Below, piece by piece: positions 1 through 6,542 of a stretch of 6,670 bases of DNA (within the stretch, counting starts at the first letter, position 1; the number at the start of each line of letters is the position of its first letter). Under the pieces are notes generated by a model. That model was given only the letters and a program-made list of their open reading frames with translations, searched no databases and was not told the DNA's origin. Source of the DNA: a bacterium (GTDB lineage: Bacteria > UBP14 > UBA6098 > JAFGQG01); NCBI GenBank assembly GCA_016930435.1, contig JAFGGQ010000175.1, positions 1 through 6,670 on the forward strand, given 5' to 3'. A program made the position numbers and the translations under genes.

Positions 1-261
1 AAGGGGGATTGGGCCCAGCGCTATATCAAAAAGGCCTTTGGCACAGTTAACTGCAATAATACCGCTGTTCCAGAGTGGGATACCGGCGGTTACGGTATCG
101 TAGAGCGCAAAATTTATGTTGGCGATACCCTCTATGGCGATCCCATCAGGGTCGGTCAGCTTGCCCTGGTAATTAATGGTGCGCGGTATTTGGGCAAAAA
201 TAACACTCCAAAATAAAACGATAAATATGACGATAACAAAGCAAATTTTTACTGATCTCAA
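1..261 (-). CDS. Secreted fibre-type protein, N-terminal part (partial, TTG start)
   Basis: This is the first 87 codons of a gene that runs off the left edge of the window. Residues 1-23 form a signal peptide: a basic start, a long hydrophobic stretch rich in I, V and F, and likely cleavage after IFA before QIPRT. Residues 24-87 match the N-terminal domain of the large protein encoded at 577: both have PR, then YQGKLTD, then an F-x-LY-x-T segment, a G-x-x-LW and a GLF....LG. The two are therefore divergently transcribed paralogs over this domain. The start is TTG at 261-259. An in-frame TAA lies upstream, no ATG or GTG occurs in frame between it and the TTG or in the visible frame, and a strong AAGGAGGG sits 4-5 nt before it. 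The function is unknown. I infer an exported fibre or surface protein. The rest of the protein, including any repeats, is not visible. Confidence 0.85.
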   Translation of the reverse strand, partial: MRSVKICFVIVIFIVLFWSVIFAQIPRTINYQGKLTDPDGIAIEGIANINFALYDTVTAGIPLWNSGIIAVNCAKGLFDIALGPIPL

Positions 262-576: not shown

Positions 577-3500
577 ATGAAAAGAATTCTTTTTCTTTTT
601 GTTTTCATTTTTGCATTGCTAATTACAGAGCCCATCGGAAACGTTGTATTGCCAAAAGTGTCTAATTGCTCATTGCTATTTGCCTCTGTTCCCCGCCTTA
701 TGACCTATCAGGGCAAGCTTACAGATTCTCTTGGAGTAGGGATCAACGACACGGTTCAGATAACCTTCGGGCTTTACAGGACTCCTGCTCTTGGGGAAAC
801 ACTCTGGACTGAGACGCACGATTCCGTGGTTATTTCAAGGGGCTTATTCAGTGTTATCCTGGGTTCAATCAATCCACTCGACCTTCCCTTTGATTTCAGT
901 TACTTCCTGCGCATAATAGTTGATGGAGACCCTCTTGCTCCAAGAGTTCAGCAAACCGCAGCCCCCTATGCCTTTCGGGCAATCTATGCGGACACTATTG
1001 ACCTGTCCGATCATGCACTCTGGGAAATGGAAGATGTAATCTACACCGCGCTCAGTCCGGGGGATGTATTAAAATGGAATGGAGCCTTATGGGTTCCGGC
1101 AGTTGATGCCGGTGCGGGAGGCGCTGATGGCGACTGGGAGATCGACGGTGCGAATATGTATTCCATCCCCGTCGGAAATGTGGGCATAGGGGAGGAAATC
1201 CCCACTGCGAAACTGCATGTAAACACCATAGAGAAAATTGGGATTAAGGTTGGGGAATCGGACAGTATCGGGATTCATGTTGACAATGCAGAATGGCATG
1301 GCGTCTATGTGGATTCCGCTGGTTATGCCGGCATCTACGTAAACCAGGCGCACGATTGGGCCGGTTATTTTAACGGTAATGGCTTCTTCAGGGGTATCGT
1401 AGTTGCCGGGTCGCTGTATTCTTGCCTGTTCCGGGATGCCAGTTATGAACCTTTGTTGCGCTCCAGTGACGGCTCTATCGACATCGGCGAGGATACCGAC
1501 GGTTCATACAATATCACTACGCCTCACGGCCTGGGTGGCACAGGTACCGACAACTACCTCGCCAGATGGAATGGCGCAAACGCGGTGGAAGCATCTATTG
1601 TTCATCAAAGTGATGTCGGAAACCTTGGAATCGGAACGGTTGCTACGACCGCGAGGCTGGCGGTTTATGGAAGCAGTGATGGTCTAAGCATCCGCAATTC
1701 CACAGACGATGCGGTGGAAATCTTTAATATCGCTGATGATGGAATCGGTATTTATGATGTGGGAGGTGTCGGAATTCAGATCGATAGTACAGGGTCATCC
1801 GGTATAATTATCGACGGTGCCTCGGAATATGGATTGAGTGTTAACAACGCTAAATGGGCTGGTGTCCGGATCGATTTGTCTGGCACGCATGGAATCTCAA
1901 TTACCAACTCGGCAAACGATGGAATTCGGGTAACAAACTCCGGCGGATTGGCAGGTAACTTCCTCGGCGACGTCAATATATCACAGCAGCTATTCGTAGG
2001 GAATGTCCCCACCGATTCCGACCCCGAGTTCCTTCTTACCGTTATAGATGGTCAGATTATGAAGGTCGATGCAACGGCTTATGAGGGCTCCGGTTTGGAC
2101 GCCGACTGGGGAGTTAACGGGGATCATATCTATACTGCCCTTCCGGGGAATGTTGGTATTGGCGTGGTAAATCCACTCGCGAAACTTCATATTGCTAATG
2201 CTCCAGATGACGGTATTCTCGTACAAACTTCCGGTGCTTATGGCATTCGGTTGATAGATTCGCACTTTCATGGGGTATTCGTCGATTCTACTTACGCAAG
2301 CGGGTTATATGTAGGCAGAGCTGCTGATAACGGCTTATGGGTAAATGTATGCGGAGAACACGGGGCAAATATTGCTTACGCCGGGCAGAACGGAGTGAAC
2401 ATCACCTATCCTGAAGATTACGGTGTAAGAGTTTACAGAGCCGGAAAGGAAGGCATTTATATTAAGGAACCTGACGGTTCGGGTGTTCGAATAACCAAAC
2501 CAGGCAATAATGGAATGATAATTGACAGTGTGCTTACCACCGAATGTGACGGGATACTTGTTCAAAATATTGAAGATGATGGAATTCATATAAAAAATGT
2601 AGTGGATGATGGAATATATATCGAAAATGCCGGTAATAATGGCATAAACATTTACAATTCCCTAAACAACGGTATGACAATAGGAAATGCCCCTAATAAA
2701 AGCATGTATATATACAACGCGGGGATCGATGGGGTAGAGATAACAGGAGCTGAAAGAACTTTAAGGGGGATATATATACATGATCATTCAGGCGTAGGAA
2801 ACCCCGACACAGGATTAGTTATCAAAGATGTTGGAACGATCGGTATTGGCATCCAGAATCCTGCAGAGCAAGGCATTCGTATCTACTCTCCCGGAACTGA
2901 CGGAGTTTATATCGATTCTCCTGGTCATTATGGAGTAAGGGTGGTTGATCCCGGTGACCACGGAGTTAGTGTAACCAGCACAAATTATCCGAATGGAACT
3001 TATGGCATATATTCAGCAAGCTCCCATGTTGGCGATACTGCCGGATATTTTTTAGGAAGAGTCTATGTCTCTGATAATTTAAGTGTTGATGGTGATCTCA
3101 CCATTGACAATATGTTAACCGTAGGCGGGGAATTGATCATTGATGATTCTCTTGTATGTAATAAAATCAGGATCGAAGATTATGGTCCCGCTTTAGTCAT
3201 GGACGGTAGTGGGGGATTATCTCAAATGATATACCAATATAATAATAACGACAAATGGCGGTTGAGTTATTCACCGGGCTTCACACGTTTAAGTTTTGAT
3301 CGCTATAGTGTATCGGACTGGCAAACAGTAATGACCCTGGACGATGATTCCGGTTTTGTGGGGATCGGCACGACCCTTCCGCACAAAAGCTTCGAAGTTG
3401 CTGGTGAAGTACGGGTTAGATCAAGTAAGGATGTCAGCGAAGTTGTAGGTTCTGGAGCATTACAAATAATGGATCCCTCGGGAACCAGAGGACTGCACTT

Positions 3501-4341
3501 TGATGAAAACGAGATTCAGGCACTGGGTATCGACCTTTACATGAATAACTCAAACTTGACTACTACACACATCAACAACCTGGTTCATGTGGATACCTCA
3601 GGGAAAGTGGGGATAAGTACCCTTACACCTGAAGGGCTTGTGCATATTCAGTCCACCGGCACTATTATGGACCCCCTCGTGGTAAAAAACGATAGTGATT
3701 TAGGATTGATAGTACAAAACAATGGCGATGTTTCTATTGGCACTGCAGGATCTGCTGCCAAATTGGATATCTACTCTGAAAGCAGGGACCTTATCAGGGC
3801 TTTCACAGACGTTGAAATAAAATTCGTTGTTAAAAATAACGGTAGGGTAGGTATAGGTGTTTCAAGCCCGGATGAGCTATTGCATGTCGCCGGTACGGCA
3901 AAGGTTGATGTTTTGAAGATCGCCGGAGGAGCAGATCTCGCGGAGCAATTCGATGTTAATGATTCACCCGAACCGGGAATGGTCGTAATCATCGATGATA
4001 AAAATCCGGGTAAGCTGATTGTCAGTAGTAAAGCCTATGACAGGAGAGTGGCGGGTATTGTAAGCGGCGCTGGAGGAGTTAATCCGGGAATGCTGATGAG
4101 TCATGATGGTACGGTCGCCGCCGGAGAGTACCCGGTGGCGCTTAGCGGGAGGGTGTATTGTATGGTTGATGCCGCTAACGGTCCCATTCAACCCGGTGAC
4201 CTACTTACAACCTCAGATATACCCGGGTATGCTATGAAGGTGATAGACCAAGAGCGCGCACAGGGAGCGATCATCGGGAAAGCTATGAGCGCACTGGATA
4301 ATGGACAGGGATTAGTACTGGTTCTGGTTACACTTCAATAA
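577..4341 (+). CDS. Large secreted repeat protein, tail-fibre/tail-spike-like, with DLAE C-terminal domain
   Basis: This 1254-residue exported protein probably forms an elongated fibre outside the cell; its target is unknown. Residues 1-36 are leader: a hydrophobic segment at 4-17, a polar stretch, then SLLFAS before PRL. Residues 38-135 are the domain shared with the left-edge gene (YQGKLTD at 44-50, GLF, QQTAAPYAFRA). A linker follows with DVLKWNGALWVPA (163-175). Seven VGIG-type motifs occur near residues 202, 350, 526, 928, 1011, 1052 and 1091. The first three each open a block of decapeptide repeats (222-261, 369-458, 546-809), and each block closes with AG-[YN]-F-x-G (262, 459, 822). 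Residues 828-925 are a non-repeat strand-rich segment. Residues 1120-1254 are a conserved terminal domain starting DLAEQF, with VALSGRVYC and GPIQPGDLLTT. Known: VGIG motifs and such terminal domains occur in phage-type fibres and many uncharacterised bacterial proteins. Inferred: a trimeric or beta-helical fibre. Alternatives are an adhesin or S-layer-associated protein. The gene is likely co-transcribed with the peptidase 17 bp downstream. Confidence 0.9.
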   Translation: MKRILFLFVFIFALLITEPIGNVVLPKVSNCSLLFASVPRLMTYQGKLTDSLGVGINDTVQITFGLYRTPALGETLWTETHDSVVISRGLFSVILGSINPLDLPFDFSYFLRIIVDGDPLAPRVQQTAAPYAFRAIYADTIDLSDHALWEMEDVIYTALSPGDVLKWNGALWVPAVDAGAGGADGDWEIDGANMYSIPVGNVGIGEEIPTAKLHVNTIEKIGIKVGESDSIGIHVDNAEWHGVYVDSAGYAGIYVNQAHDWAGYFNGNGFFRGIVVAGSLYSCLFRDASYEPLLRSSDGSIDIGEDTDGSYNITTPHGLGGTGTDNYLARWNGANAVEASIVHQSDVGNLGIGTVATTARLAVYGSSDGLSIRNSTDDAVEIFNIADDGIGIYDVGGVGIQIDSTGSSGIIIDGASEYGLSVNNAKWAGVRIDLSGTHGISITNSANDGIRVTNSGGLAGNFLGDVNISQQLFVGNVPTDSDPEFLLTVIDGQIMKVDATAYEGSGLDADWGVNGDHIYTALPGNVGIGVVNPLAKLHIANAPDDGILVQTSGAYGIRLIDSHFHGVFVDSTYASGLYVGRAADNGLWVNVCGEHGANIAYAGQNGVNITYPEDYGVRVYRAGKEGIYIKEPDGSGVRITKPGNNGMIIDSVLTTECDGILVQNIEDDGIHIKNVVDDGIYIENAGNNGINIYNSLNNGMTIGNAPNKSMYIYNAGIDGVEITGAERTLRGIYIHDHSGVGNPDTGLVIKDVGTIGIGIQNPAEQGIRIYSPGTDGVYIDSPGHYGVRVVDPGDHGVSVTSTNYPNGTYGIYSASSHVGDTAGYFLGRVYVSDNLSVDGDLTIDNMLTVGGELIIDDSLVCNKIRIEDYGPALVMDGSGGLSQMIYQYNNNDKWRLSYSPGFTRLSFDRYSVSDWQTVMTLDDDSGFVGIGTTLPHKSFEVAGEVRVRSSKDVSEVVGSGALQIMDPSGTRGLHFDENEIQALGIDLYMNNSNLTTTHINNLVHVDTSGKVGISTLTPEGLVHIQSTGTIMDPLVVKNDSDLGLIVQNNGDVSIGTAGSAAKLDIYSESRDLIRAFTDVEIKFVVKNNGRVGIGVSSPDELLHVAGTAKVDVLKIAGGADLAEQFDVNDSPEPGMVVIIDDKNPGKLIVSSKAYDRRVAGIVSGAGGVNPGMLMSHDGTVAAGEYPVALSGRVYCMVDAANGPIQPGDLLTTSDIPGYAMKVIDQERAQGAIIGKAMSALDNGQGLVLVLVTLQ
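688..981 (+). other. N-terminal YQGKLTD domain of the fibre protein
   Basis: This segment covers residues 38-135. It is the mature N-terminus and is the part shared with the divergent gene at the left edge. Landmarks are PRLMTYQGKLTD, then F-G-LYRT, TLW, GLFSVILG, a strand FSYFLRIIVDG, and an end at PYAFRA. I know this pattern only as a recurrent N-terminal module of exported bacterial proteins with fibre-like bodies. Its role is unknown; anchoring to a base or to the cell surface is plausible because the downstream bodies vary. Confidence 0.7.
1240..1359 (+). repeat. Decapeptide repeat block 1 (4 units, 30-bp period)
   Basis: Residues 222-261 are four units beginning GIKV, GIHV, GVYV and GIYV. 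They follow the pattern G-[IV]-x-V-x-x-[AS]-x-x-x (first unit looser), with no insertion. The block is preceded by GNVGIG...P.AKLHV (200-215) and closed by AGYFNG at 262-267. At the DNA level the units are diverged, so this is an old protein repeat and not a recent tandem array. Confidence 0.85.
1681..1950 (+). repeat. Decapeptide repeat block 2 (9 units, 30-bp period)
   Basis: Residues 369-458 are nine gap-free ten-residue units: GLSI, AVEI, GIGI, GIQI, GIII, GLSV, GVRI, GISI and GIRV. Unit 2 has Ala in place of Gly. Positions 2 and 4 are always aliphatic, position 6 is usually N or D, position 7 is often A or S. The block is opened by GNLGIGT...ARLAV (348-363) and closed by AGNFLG at 459-464. 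Confidence 0.88.
2212..3003 (+). repeat. Decapeptide repeat block 3 (25 units, 30-bp period)
   Basis: Residues 546-809 are 25 consecutive units of the form G-[IVLM]-x-[IV]-x-x-[APS]-x-x-[DNYH], with a 26th partial unit at 810. Twenty-one units are exactly 10 residues. Four are longer: unit 11 has 13, unit 18 has 12, unit 19 has 15 and unit 25 has 14. Unit 17 starts with Ser instead of Gly. The block is opened by GNVGIG...P.AKLHI (524-539) and closed by AGYFLG at 822-827. Neighbouring units sometimes share short exact DNA words at 30-bp steps, for example GATGATGGAAT at 2575 and 2605, so some copies may be fairly young. Confidence 0.92.
3934..4338 (+). other. DLAE-type C-terminal domain, possible intramolecular chaperone
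   Basis: Residues 1120-1254 are the last 135 residues and look well conserved in style: DLAEQF, EPGMVVIID, NPGKL, YDRRVAGIVSGAGGVNPG, VALSGRVYC, GPIQPGDLLTTS, AQGAIIGKA and a hydrophobic end LVLVLVTLQ. I recognise this as a recurrent terminal domain of VGIG-containing proteins. The opening D-x-AE resembles the DYAE at the self-cleavage site of phage phi29 gp12-type (peptidase G2) tail-spike chaperone domains, as I recall it. The residue before Asp1120 is Ala1119, where the phage has Ser, so cleavage here is not assured. Confidence 0.6.
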
Positions 4342-4358: not shown

Positions 4359-5975
4359 ATGAGAAAGAAATATAAACAAAAACAAAAATACCTGATTCCC
4401 TGGTTCCTGGTTTGTATAGCGGGAGTATTAACCTTGCATGCTGAAAAGCTTTCGGAGCAGGACATTAAAACTGCGGTCCAAACATGGGTGCAGGTAGTAA
4501 CTGCCGATGCCCGTCCGGATGCCGTTATTGAATCTATGGAACCATTTGTAACTGAGGGTGAGACCCTGGCTTACATTGCTCATATATCGGATAGCGGATT
4601 CTGCCTATGCGGGGCGGATAATATGCTCTACCCTGTTTATTATTACAATCCCCATAATAGTTTTGACGCGAATAATCCAAATTATAAGTATATCTTAGAG
4701 GAAATTACTGTTAGAACCGATTCCTATAAGGCTGGAATATCTGCCGAAGACACCCTGGTACTAAAATATGCTGAAGAGTTTGAATCGCGGGTCGCTCTCT
4801 GGAGAACCTTAGTTGAAGGTACTATCCCTCCGCTAATTACAGGAGATGAAAGTCCCCTCGCTGATCCTGATAGGATGAGTATTTTGTTTAACAGCAAGTG
4901 GGGACAGCATTGGCCTTTCTGGCACTATTGCCCTACCCTAACCCATAATCCCGTGGAACCAGACACCACCGTTGTGGGTTGTGTGGCAACAGCCTTAGCT
5001 CAGATAATATACTACTGGGAATGGCCTCCCCAGGGCACCGGTACAGTAGATACGGACTACCTCTTCCGGTGGAGTAACCTTTGGTTGAAGCAAGCACTGG
5101 CTGATGATCCCGGAATTGATACTACCGGTGATTTCAGGAATCGCTTAAGATGGGCCGGTGACACTCTGGAAATGAGAGGTAAATGGGATTATAGTCTGTA
5201 CGAATCTGCTCAGTATATAGATACTACGGCTGAATATTTAGCTGCATTATCAAACCTGTGGAATGGAATGAACGCCGACTCAGCTCACCTGGAGGTGAAT
5301 CTGGAAGCTCATTCCTATAATTACGATATTATGCTCGATCAACCGGAGGCCTTTTATCCTTCAAATTCGAACCTCGAAATGGCTAAACTCAGCTACCATA
5401 CGGGTCTGGCTGTAGATATGAGTTATGGTATAAATAGCTCCAGCTCTCTAACCTCAAATGTCCCCGAATTTATAATCAACCAGTTTGATTATGATCCCGA
5501 CGCCCATTATATTGATATTGATATTGACTCCATGACTAATGAGATTATATGGTCCCGTCCAGTGCAGATAAGGGGAAGCAGCAGCGCTGCCGGGGGACAT
5601 TCATGGGTGGTTTTCGGGTACAACAAGGCAACTGACCCGAACCGTCAATTCAGGATGAACATGGGATGGGATGGAAGCGATGATGGCTGGTACACACTGG
5701 ATAATGTGCCCCTGGATCTGATAAATAGTCACGCGCATAACATTTTTGTTGCTCCCGAGAATGTAGTCAGGTTCGTGGGGACTTCAGGAAGTCCGGGTGA
5801 TGGCTCACCCAATAATCCTCACGGCTCCTTTACAGAAGGCTTAGATGGCGTCGATGATGGCGGTACTCTGGTATTCAAAGCCAATTCAGTACATTACTAT
5901 CCCGCTGATTCGGCGATTAACCAGGAAGTAACGCTGAAGGGCTACAACATTGAGATAAGGGCTGCTGCGCCTTAG
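4359..5975 (+). CDS. Secreted C10-family (streptopain-like) cysteine peptidase with C-terminal accessory domain
   Basis: This 538-residue exported endopeptidase belongs to the papain-fold C10 family (streptopain/SpeB). Residues 1-28 are a signal peptide with a KYKQKQKY basic start and likely cleavage after LHA. Residues ~30-135 resemble the Spi-type inhibitory propeptide, including SGFCLCGADN followed by YPVYYY. The catalytic domain starts near 175 with KWGQ..PFWHYCP. GCVATALAQ places the nucleophile at Cys208. MAKLSYHTGLAVDMSYG is the family helix. GGHSWVVFGYN places the catalytic His at 414. NMGWDG (434-439) replaces the usual NWGWGG, with Met at the first Trp position. The Cys-His spacing is 206 residues against 148 in streptopain, owing to an insertion at about 225-320. 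Residues ~469-538 add a domain with GDGSPNNPHGSF and a GGTLVF strand, like the first coil of a beta-helix. The gene lies 17 bp behind the fibre gene, so the two probably form an operon. The substrate is unknown. Confidence 0.9.
   Translation: MRKKYKQKQKYLIPWFLVCIAGVLTLHAEKLSEQDIKTAVQTWVQVVTADARPDAVIESMEPFVTEGETLAYIAHISDSGFCLCGADNMLYPVYYYNPHNSFDANNPNYKYILEEITVRTDSYKAGISAEDTLVLKYAEEFESRVALWRTLVEGTIPPLITGDESPLADPDRMSILFNSKWGQHWPFWHYCPTLTHNPVEPDTTVVGCVATALAQIIYYWEWPPQGTGTVDTDYLFRWSNLWLKQALADDPGIDTTGDFRNRLRWAGDTLEMRGKWDYSLYESAQYIDTTAEYLAALSNLWNGMNADSAHLEVNLEAHSYNYDIMLDQPEAFYPSNSNLEMAKLSYHTGLAVDMSYGINSSSSLTSNVPEFIINQFDYDPDAHYIDIDIDSMTNEIIWSRPVQIRGSSSAAGGHSWVVFGYNKATDPNRQFRMNMGWDGSDDGWYTLDNVPLDLINSHAHNIFVAPENVVRFVGTSGSPGDGSPNNPHGSFTEGLDGVDDGGTLVFKANSVHYYPADSAINQEVTLKGYNIEIRAAAP
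5763..5972 (+). other. Short C-terminal beta-helix-like domain of the peptidase
   Basis: Residues 469-538 follow the papain fold. The order is VRFVGTSGSPGDGSPNNPHG, then a helix-like FTEGLDGV, then GGTLVFKA, then INQEVTLKGYNIEIR. This order (G-GS-x-NP, then a short helix, then GGTV strand, then a VTL strand) is what begins many secreted parallel beta-helix proteins. Only about one coil is present, so it is either a minimal binding domain or a truncated one. Confidence 0.5.
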
Positions 5976-6003: not shown

Positions 6004-6492
6004 TTATTTAGACCGTGTTACGGCAATCCAGAAGAATTCCACTCCGGATTTTCCTTCTCCCATCTCCTTGACCGTAAAACCACTTTCATTATATTTGTAA
6101 ATGAACAAACCGTTACATTCGCCCAGTGGTGTAACCGTAATAGAGACTGCTTCCGGGTCGTTGAGTCCTTCGGTGAATTCCTTTTCGAACTCGACACTGC
6201 AGATTCCTTCAACTAACCGGGCTTTTCCGGATGCTTCTGTTTTCGAGGAGCGGTTGTATTTCCCCTTCATTTCCGCTATTTTTTCCTGCATCTCGGATTT
6301 ATCCATCTTCTTGAATTCCGGCTTTTGGAATGGGACTGGCTCCCCTGTCTTCTCCTGGACTGTGGGGGTGGATTCCTCAATTTGGCCTTCATTGGGGTCG
6401 GTAGTCTGTTCTGTTTGCGCCCAGATGGGTACTGATAGTGTATATAACATAAAACACACTATAATGAGGGAACAAATTTTTGTTGCTTTCAT
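6004..6492 (-). CDS. Small secreted protein with a fibre-associated C-terminal domain
   Basis: This is a 162-residue exported protein of unknown function. Residues 1-25 are a signal peptide (MKATKIC start, hydrophobic core IIVCFMLY, cleavage after IWA). Residues 26-60 are a polar, T/E/P/Q-rich linker. Residues 61-88 are Lys/Glu-rich and probably helical. Residues 89-162 are the folded part: SGKARLVEGICSVEF, EFTEGL, VSITVTPLGECNGLF, SGFTVKEM, GKSGVEFFWIAV. I recognise this last segment as the G-T-A-x-L...V-TP-G...F-V-x-E...F-W pattern found at the C-termini of other VGIG-containing fibre-type proteins. Here it stands alone on a short protein. I chose ATG 6492 over the ATG at 6516 because AGGAG (6501-6505) lies 8 nt before it and the protein then begins with a normal signal peptide. 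It is convergent with the peptidase gene. An interaction with the fibre is only inferred. Confidence 0.8.
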   Translation of the reverse strand: MKATKICSLIIVCFMLYTLSVPIWAQTEQTTDPNEGQIEESTPTVQEKTGEPVPFQKPEFKKMDKSEMQEKIAEMKGKYNRSSKTEASGKARLVEGICSVEFEKEFTEGLNDPEAVSITVTPLGECNGLFIYKYNESGFTVKEMGEGKSGVEFFWIAVTRSK

Positions 6493-6500
6493 GACTTTTA

Positions 6501-6505
6501 CTCCT
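6501..6505 (-). promoter_or_regulatory. Ribosome binding site deciding the ATG 6492 start
   Basis: On the minus strand this is AGGAG, 8 nt upstream of ATG 6492-6490. The upstream in-frame ATG at 6516 has no such sequence before it, and would place a few extra residues ahead of the signal peptide. Confidence 0.75.
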
Positions 6506-6542
6506 GTAATTAACAATTTTGGTTCGTACGCAATTTAGTTGC

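Follow-up and report, generated by a model that had tools for sequence, protein, structure and literature searches.

Decapeptide-repeat arrays in a secreted mosaic fibre protein of an uncultured bacterium and a proposed trimeric stalk

The fibre gene, its arrays and its neighbours

The window (the whole 6,670-nucleotide stretch of DNA that was analysed) carries on its forward strand the gene of a large secreted protein, followed directly by the gene of a secreted peptidase. The features on which the analysis turns are given below; where no other basis is named, they were read from the sequence itself.

577..4341, + strand: whole gene of a 1254-residue secreted mosaic fibre protein (open reading frame; 1239-residue ortholog in genome G005)
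577..672, + strand: signal peptide region, a hydrophobic N-terminus of about residues 1-32
673..1026, + strand: N-terminal beta-rich anchor domain, residues 33-150 (Bdello_MAT_N, E=2.8e-4, below the curated cut-off)
1174..1224, + strand: tail-fibre type module GNVGIGxxxPxAKLHV just before R1; similar VGIGxxxP modules lie near residues 345-365, 520-536, 928-945 and 1090-1105
1240..1359, + strand: array R1, 4 decapeptide units, residues 222-261
1681..1950, + strand: array R2, 9 decapeptide units, residues 369-458
2212..3003, + strand: array R3, 25 units, residues 546-809 (sequence and ortholog comparison)
2512..2550, + strand: 13-residue irregular unit GMIIDSVLTTECD in R3 (equal length in the G005 ortholog)
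2731..2841, + strand: R3 cassette of 12+15 residues, GVEITGAERTLR GIYIHDHSGVGNPDT, followed by GLVIKDVGTI (recurs in relatives)
3925..4338, + strand: C-terminal cap, residues 1117-1254, from the motif (A/S)DxAExF (AF2 model, VIA, hhalign)
4359..5975, + strand: secreted C10 (streptopain-type) cysteine peptidase (PF01640, E=1e-38)

R3 consists, as the sequence-only reading had proposed, of 25 units of the form G-[IV]-x-[IV]-x2-[APS]-x3, of which 21 are exactly ten residues long (residues 546-809, window 2212-3003). The units start at 546, 556 ... 646, 659 ... 699, 709 (where S stands first), 719, 731, 746 and 756 ... 796. The same reading expected a uniform rod; the ten-residue spacing is indeed very regular, but it is interrupted within R3 by the four other units, which are conserved and measure 13, 12, 15 and 14 residues. 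R1 and R2, which share the unit and the period of R3, had been overlooked.

The periodicity stands far outside what shuffled sequences produce. R3 contains 17 pairs of G[IVLM]x[IVLM] spaced by exactly ten residues; in 5000 shuffles of its residues such pairs averaged 0.02 and never exceeded 2, and the strict five-unit DNA pattern occurs three times in the window and in none of 200 dinucleotide-preserving shuffles. Glycine and aliphatic residues show autocorrelation maxima at 10, 20 and 30, so the period differs, as had been claimed, from those of RTX, hexapeptide and pentapeptide repeats (9, 6 and 5, respectively), and no Pfam family accounts for it.

Profile searches with the repeat against Pfam, NCBIfam, PHROGs and PDB sequences were without significant match, in agreement with the earlier failure to place it in a named family; the array found nothing at E < 0.04 among PHROGs and nothing at E < 0.09 among PDB sequences. 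We found no description of a decapeptide stalk repeat in the literature, and absence from libraries is not the same as never having been described. The repeat is thus absent from every family library searched, but the fibre itself belongs to a known kind.

Around the fibre gene, several further observations were made. The C-terminus of the downstream C10 peptidase resembles the start of a parallel beta-helix (GTSGSPGDGSPNNPHGSF...). The G005 ortholog is followed by two tandem C10-type genes (L195 reading frames; likeness judged by eye), and the neighbourhood is thus partly conserved. Before the fibre gene, window 1-261 (- strand) holds, by eye, the start of a further, divergently oriented N-domain protein (IPRTINYQGKLTDPDG...). 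At the other end, window 6004-6516 (- strand) encodes a small secreted protein that matches no Pfam family and whose end (GLFIYKYNESGFTVKE...FFWIAV) looks by eye like the third cap type described below; a phmmer match to that type was sought and none was found, and the assignment was dropped. Two reading frames of L195 (L195:5161-6849 and L195:9148-10980, both - strand) have ends that resemble T9SS type A sorting domains (SGVYFYVVDIGG...), a hint of type IX secretion in that lineage.

Relatives of the array and the unit of its evolution

We scanned 84,980 species genomes for a strict DNA pattern of four units. Six of the 64 loci obtained are true relatives, with long open frames and the same kind of unit: L134 (labelled WOR-3), L136 (Desantisbacteria), L139 (Chloroflexi), L154, L177 and L182. 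Most of the remaining loci were low-complexity tandem repeats and were set aside, as were the loci from two pattern scans of viral contigs, which were low-complexity GV/PT repeats or antisense artefacts.

We pooled 232 ten-residue units from 16 arrays of the window and its relatives. Glycine occupies position 1 in 97% of them, I or V position 2 in 83% and position 4 in 95%, one of A/P/S/T position 7 in 91%, glycine position 8 in 52% and one of D/N/H position 10 in 67%; positions 3, 5, 6 and 9 differ widely among units. Of the 256 chained spacings between unit starts in the window and relatives, 216 are of ten residues, and in L177 the array reaches up to 48 chained starts. The departures from ten also recur: the 12+15 cassette (GxxIxG...GIxI..........DTGIVI) is found in the window, in the G005 ortholog, in L154 and twice in L201, and a 12+14 variant occurs in L219.

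The ortholog, in the genome of L177 (G005), is 84% identical to the window protein in its first part and 73.5% over aligned sites. Its R2 is longer than that of the window by exactly 60 residues, or six units, and its R3 shorter by exactly 10, or one unit. Because these length differences are whole multiples of the repeat, the decapeptide is the unit in which the array evolves, its length shifting by whole units. Within R3, conservation between the orthologs is 82% in the first half and 51% in the second. We also computed dN/dS, which gives no evidence beyond general constraint, since synonymous sites are near saturation. When units are compared by their distance along the array, similarity at lag 3 (mean 0.24) is below that at lags 1, 2, 4 and 6, and L134 shows a four-unit higher-order repeat within its array.

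Other shaft types were seen beside the decapeptide. Two proteins of L196 (L196:14333-17371 and L196:17675-19999, both + strand) carry a sister type, with G[VI]xGx[ST] repeats often about 14 residues or multiples apart; in L139, GVxGxS units about ten residues apart run directly into GVYVxSA decapeptides; and a single protein, L136:1989-6836 (+ strand), contains a decapeptide array together with right-handed beta-helix domains (PF13229) and long TATYAxxAGTS repeats.

The N-terminal domain and the C-terminal cap

The N-domain was compared with the MAT N-domain model NF053851, whose curated cut-off is 60 bits. The window protein scores 20.7 bits and the best relatives 34-36 bits, all under that cut-off, with E-values on single proteins from 2.8e-4 (window) to 2e-8 (relatives). 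The model gives 29 matches in G005; all 8 relative genomes have matches and none of the 14 controls does, and again every score lies below the curated cut-off. In a genome labelled Bdellovibrionaceae it exceeds the cut-off. An hhalign comparison of the N-domain with one Bdellovibrionaceae MAT returned a probability of 47%. In the reverse direction, the N-domain profile A4 found no match in a Bdellovibrionaceae genome, so the case for homology depends on the matches of the MAT profile itself. We conclude from this profile comparison that the N-domain is distantly homologous to MAT N-domains, outside the curated family.

The fetched loci yielded 49 distinct N-domain proteins or fragments, mostly from G005. 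This 4 Mb genome has more than 40 MAT-like N-domain loci (L195-L214), whose shafts and caps vary and several of which are clustered (C100, C117, C37). For Bdellovibrio HD100, the passages of the MAT study drawn on here count 21 MATs, and they describe fibres with a conserved end for retention at the cell, a diversified other end and intertwined trimeric beta-prisms between (PMC10769870).

At the C-terminal end, AlphaFold2 modelled residues 1090-1254 with a core pLDDT above 90. By VIA, this model superposes on the C-terminal fragment of phi29 gp12 (3gqh) with Z 12.1 and 2.8 A over 106 residues at 21% identity, and on 3suc with Z 12.1; phage head decoration proteins also appear in the VIA list, the fold class being common to both. 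Foldseek retrieved 3suc and 3gqh at E of about 0.01-0.02. In hhalign, the window motif ADLAEQF lies opposite SDFAEYF of gp12 (probability 78, pairwise E 1.9e-5), and the cap aligns to a seven-member G2 profile with probability 75. Against Pfam PF11962 (Peptidase_G2) the window cap has no match, and the best of ten family members reaches E 0.055, below significance. The cap is therefore predicted, from the model and these alignments, to adopt the fold of the phi29 gp12 auto-chaperone (Peptidase_G2-like), and the gp12-like fold together with the aligned motif makes a role as trimerisation chaperone likely. Self-cleavage is another matter. Mature gp12* ends at 691 (PMC6542822). Every member of the cap family alignment A3 has the Asp of the motif, and almost every one has the Glu; immediately before the Asp, several paralogs have Ser, whereas the window protein and its ortholog have Ala. 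Cleavage of the window cap is doubtful, because Ala stands where phi29 gp12 has the cleavage Ser.

The 49 N-domain proteins or fragments end in different ways: 9 in a gp12-like cap, 8 in a third cap type and 3 in S74, the other 29 being of another kind, cut off or unassigned. Peptidase_S74 chaperones thus close some paralogs that have the same N-domain. Decapeptide arrays are joined to the window-type cap in the window protein, its ortholog and L139, and to the third cap in L134, L177 and L201. Because both cap types are found on decapeptide arrays, stalk and cap must have been exchanged; a conserved end paired with a diversified one is the logic set out for MAT fibres in the passages drawn on here (PMC10769870).

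These phage-like parts raise the question of whether the protein is a phage or prophage tail fibre and not a cellular one. Residues 913-1117 match PHROG 18345, 'tail fiber protein', at E 8.7e-12, and the caps are of phage type. Against this stand the signal peptide, the dozens of paralogs spread across one bacterial genome and the adjoining gene for a secreted peptidase; the window has no phage genes and the fibre gene is absent from phage structural modules, the array has no match in 50,697 phage records, and the viral contigs scanned contain no true relative. We regard a phage origin as very improbable, and that the window protein belongs to the mosaic fibre kind is well supported.

A proposed structure of the stalk and its known counterparts

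One chain of the array, modelled by AlphaFold2 with 20 aligned arrays, had pLDDT values that averaged 69.5 and lay mostly at 75-86 in the first 180 residues; DSSP returned zero strands on this single-chain model. Compared with the PDB by Foldseek, the model matched five chains, none of them significantly (best E 2.4): two of Hyal_Sk, two of phage hyaluronidase and one of a phage capsid spike. VIA gave Z 4.1 (11.5 A over 185 residues) and Z 3.6 (4.2 A over 153), and a BFVD fold search found nothing significant. That no beta-solenoid stands among the PDB matches of the model is suggestive of a trimer and not proof of one.

The sequence-only reading had left two folds side by side, a beta-solenoid and a trimeric beta-prism fibre. 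Were the array a monomeric beta-solenoid of the antifreeze or pectate-lyase type, each coil would be made of two or three decapeptides from one chain, and trimerisation would be confined to the flanking domains. Such a coil would suit the alternation of I/V and the turn-rich loops, and the weak profile matches include several beta-helical proteins, among them antifreeze proteins and an alpha-1,3-glucanase; Pfam CfAFP is likewise a weak match. All of these lie at E 0.0017 or worse, under the curated cut-off where one exists, and both CfAFP and the glucanase were rejected as relatives. Nor do units resemble each other preferentially at lag 3, as a three-unit coil might produce, and the one-unit deletion in R3 and the four-unit repeat of L134 break any fixed coil of two or three units; with no solenoid retrieved by the model, we consider this fold unlikely.

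The trimeric fibre is favoured over the monomeric solenoid on account of the MAT-like N-domains, the phage-type trimer chaperone caps and the matches, though insignificant, of the single-chain model to intertwined trimers. The three chains might still run without intertwining, as parallel solenoids or beta-prism blocks, with the shaft itself adhering through variable positions 3, 5, 6 and 9. The high variability of these positions between units agrees with this, as does the lower conservation of the second half of R3 between orthologs (51% against 82%). Nothing specific favours separate chains, and the characterised relatives of the N-domain are, in the passages of the MAT study drawn on here, intertwined beta-prisms (PMC10769870), which leaves this arrangement with little probability.

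We hypothesize instead that the repeat forms the stalk of a homotrimeric mosaic fibre, secreted and displayed on the cell surface, in which the decapeptides make up a triple-stranded beta-helix, and we consider this reading probable. The fibre would be built from a conserved N-terminal anchor, shaft modules that can replace one another (decapeptide arrays and VGIGxxxP modules) and a likewise exchangeable trimerisation and auto-chaperone cap. The analysis establishes the repeat, the change of its arrays by whole units, its presence in proteins that have the anchor domain and the predicted fold of the cap; the trimeric packing, the display at the surface and the spacer and adhesion role are what we infer. 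Each decapeptide would supply a short strand, G-[IV]-x-[IV], and a turn, x-x-[APS]-G-x-[DNH], together one face of a three-sided prism, and three chains would wind about a common axis as in the triple-stranded beta-helix of T4 gp5. Beta-strands are spaced by about 4.8 A; the expected rise would be about 4.8 A per unit, which would make R3 about 12 nm long. Because the proposed trimer is threefold symmetric, any whole number of units could be gained or lost without penalty in register, and the array could thereby serve as a spacer of adjustable length, keeping an adhesive or catalytic tip at a distance from the cell. A C3-symmetric prism accounts for the loss of a single unit in one lineage no less well than a fixed single-chain coil does.

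A broader claim, on which we are evenly divided, is that the array represents an undescribed natural class of triple-stranded beta-helix, able to reach more than 40 units per chain, that serves as the adjustable shaft of a large MAT-like repertoire in uncultured bacteria outside Bdellovibrio. If the packing is right, the decapeptide would offer protein engineering a regular shaft module whose length is set in whole ten-residue steps. Mosaic fibres made of phage-like parts would then be seen to form large sets of paralogs in uncultured bacteria, and the role of these fibres, be it attachment, symbiosis, predation or biofilm, would become a testable question.

Among known systems, the MAT fibres of Bdellovibrio bacteriovorus, in the passages of their description drawn on here, share with the window protein a signal peptide followed by a conserved beta-rich domain of about 130 residues, a long shaft, a variable C-terminus with S74 caps in some members, and many paralogs per genome (PMC10769870). 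They differ in that the window N-domain scores under the curated cut-off, that none of the relatives found here is a Bdellovibrio, that the window cap is gp12-like and not S74, TNF-like or lectin, and that a decapeptide shaft goes without mention in those passages. The phi29 gp12 auto-chaperone (Peptidase_G2) is like the window cap in predicted fold, in having (A/S)DxAExF at the cleavage position and in profile match; the window cap, unlike it, is below Pfam significance and has shorter inserts and Ala for Ser. The PL16 hyaluronidases of phage and Streptomyces (HylP, Hyal_Sk) form a triple-stranded structure of three interwoven chains (PMC11669647), and the PDB matches of the array model are mainly to chains of such intertwined trimers; these matches are insignificant, the array has no PL16 sequence match, and a catalytic function is not proposed for it. 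The triple-stranded beta-helix of T4 gp5 is built on an eight-residue repeat, VxGxxxxx (PMC4576200), whereas the decapeptide has ten residues, of which two are aliphatic and the last, ahead of the G, is D/N/H, no sequence match to gp5 and a trimer that we infer; what the two have in common is a short regular repeat with small and aliphatic positions, a proposed strand and turn per unit, and a length set by copy number.
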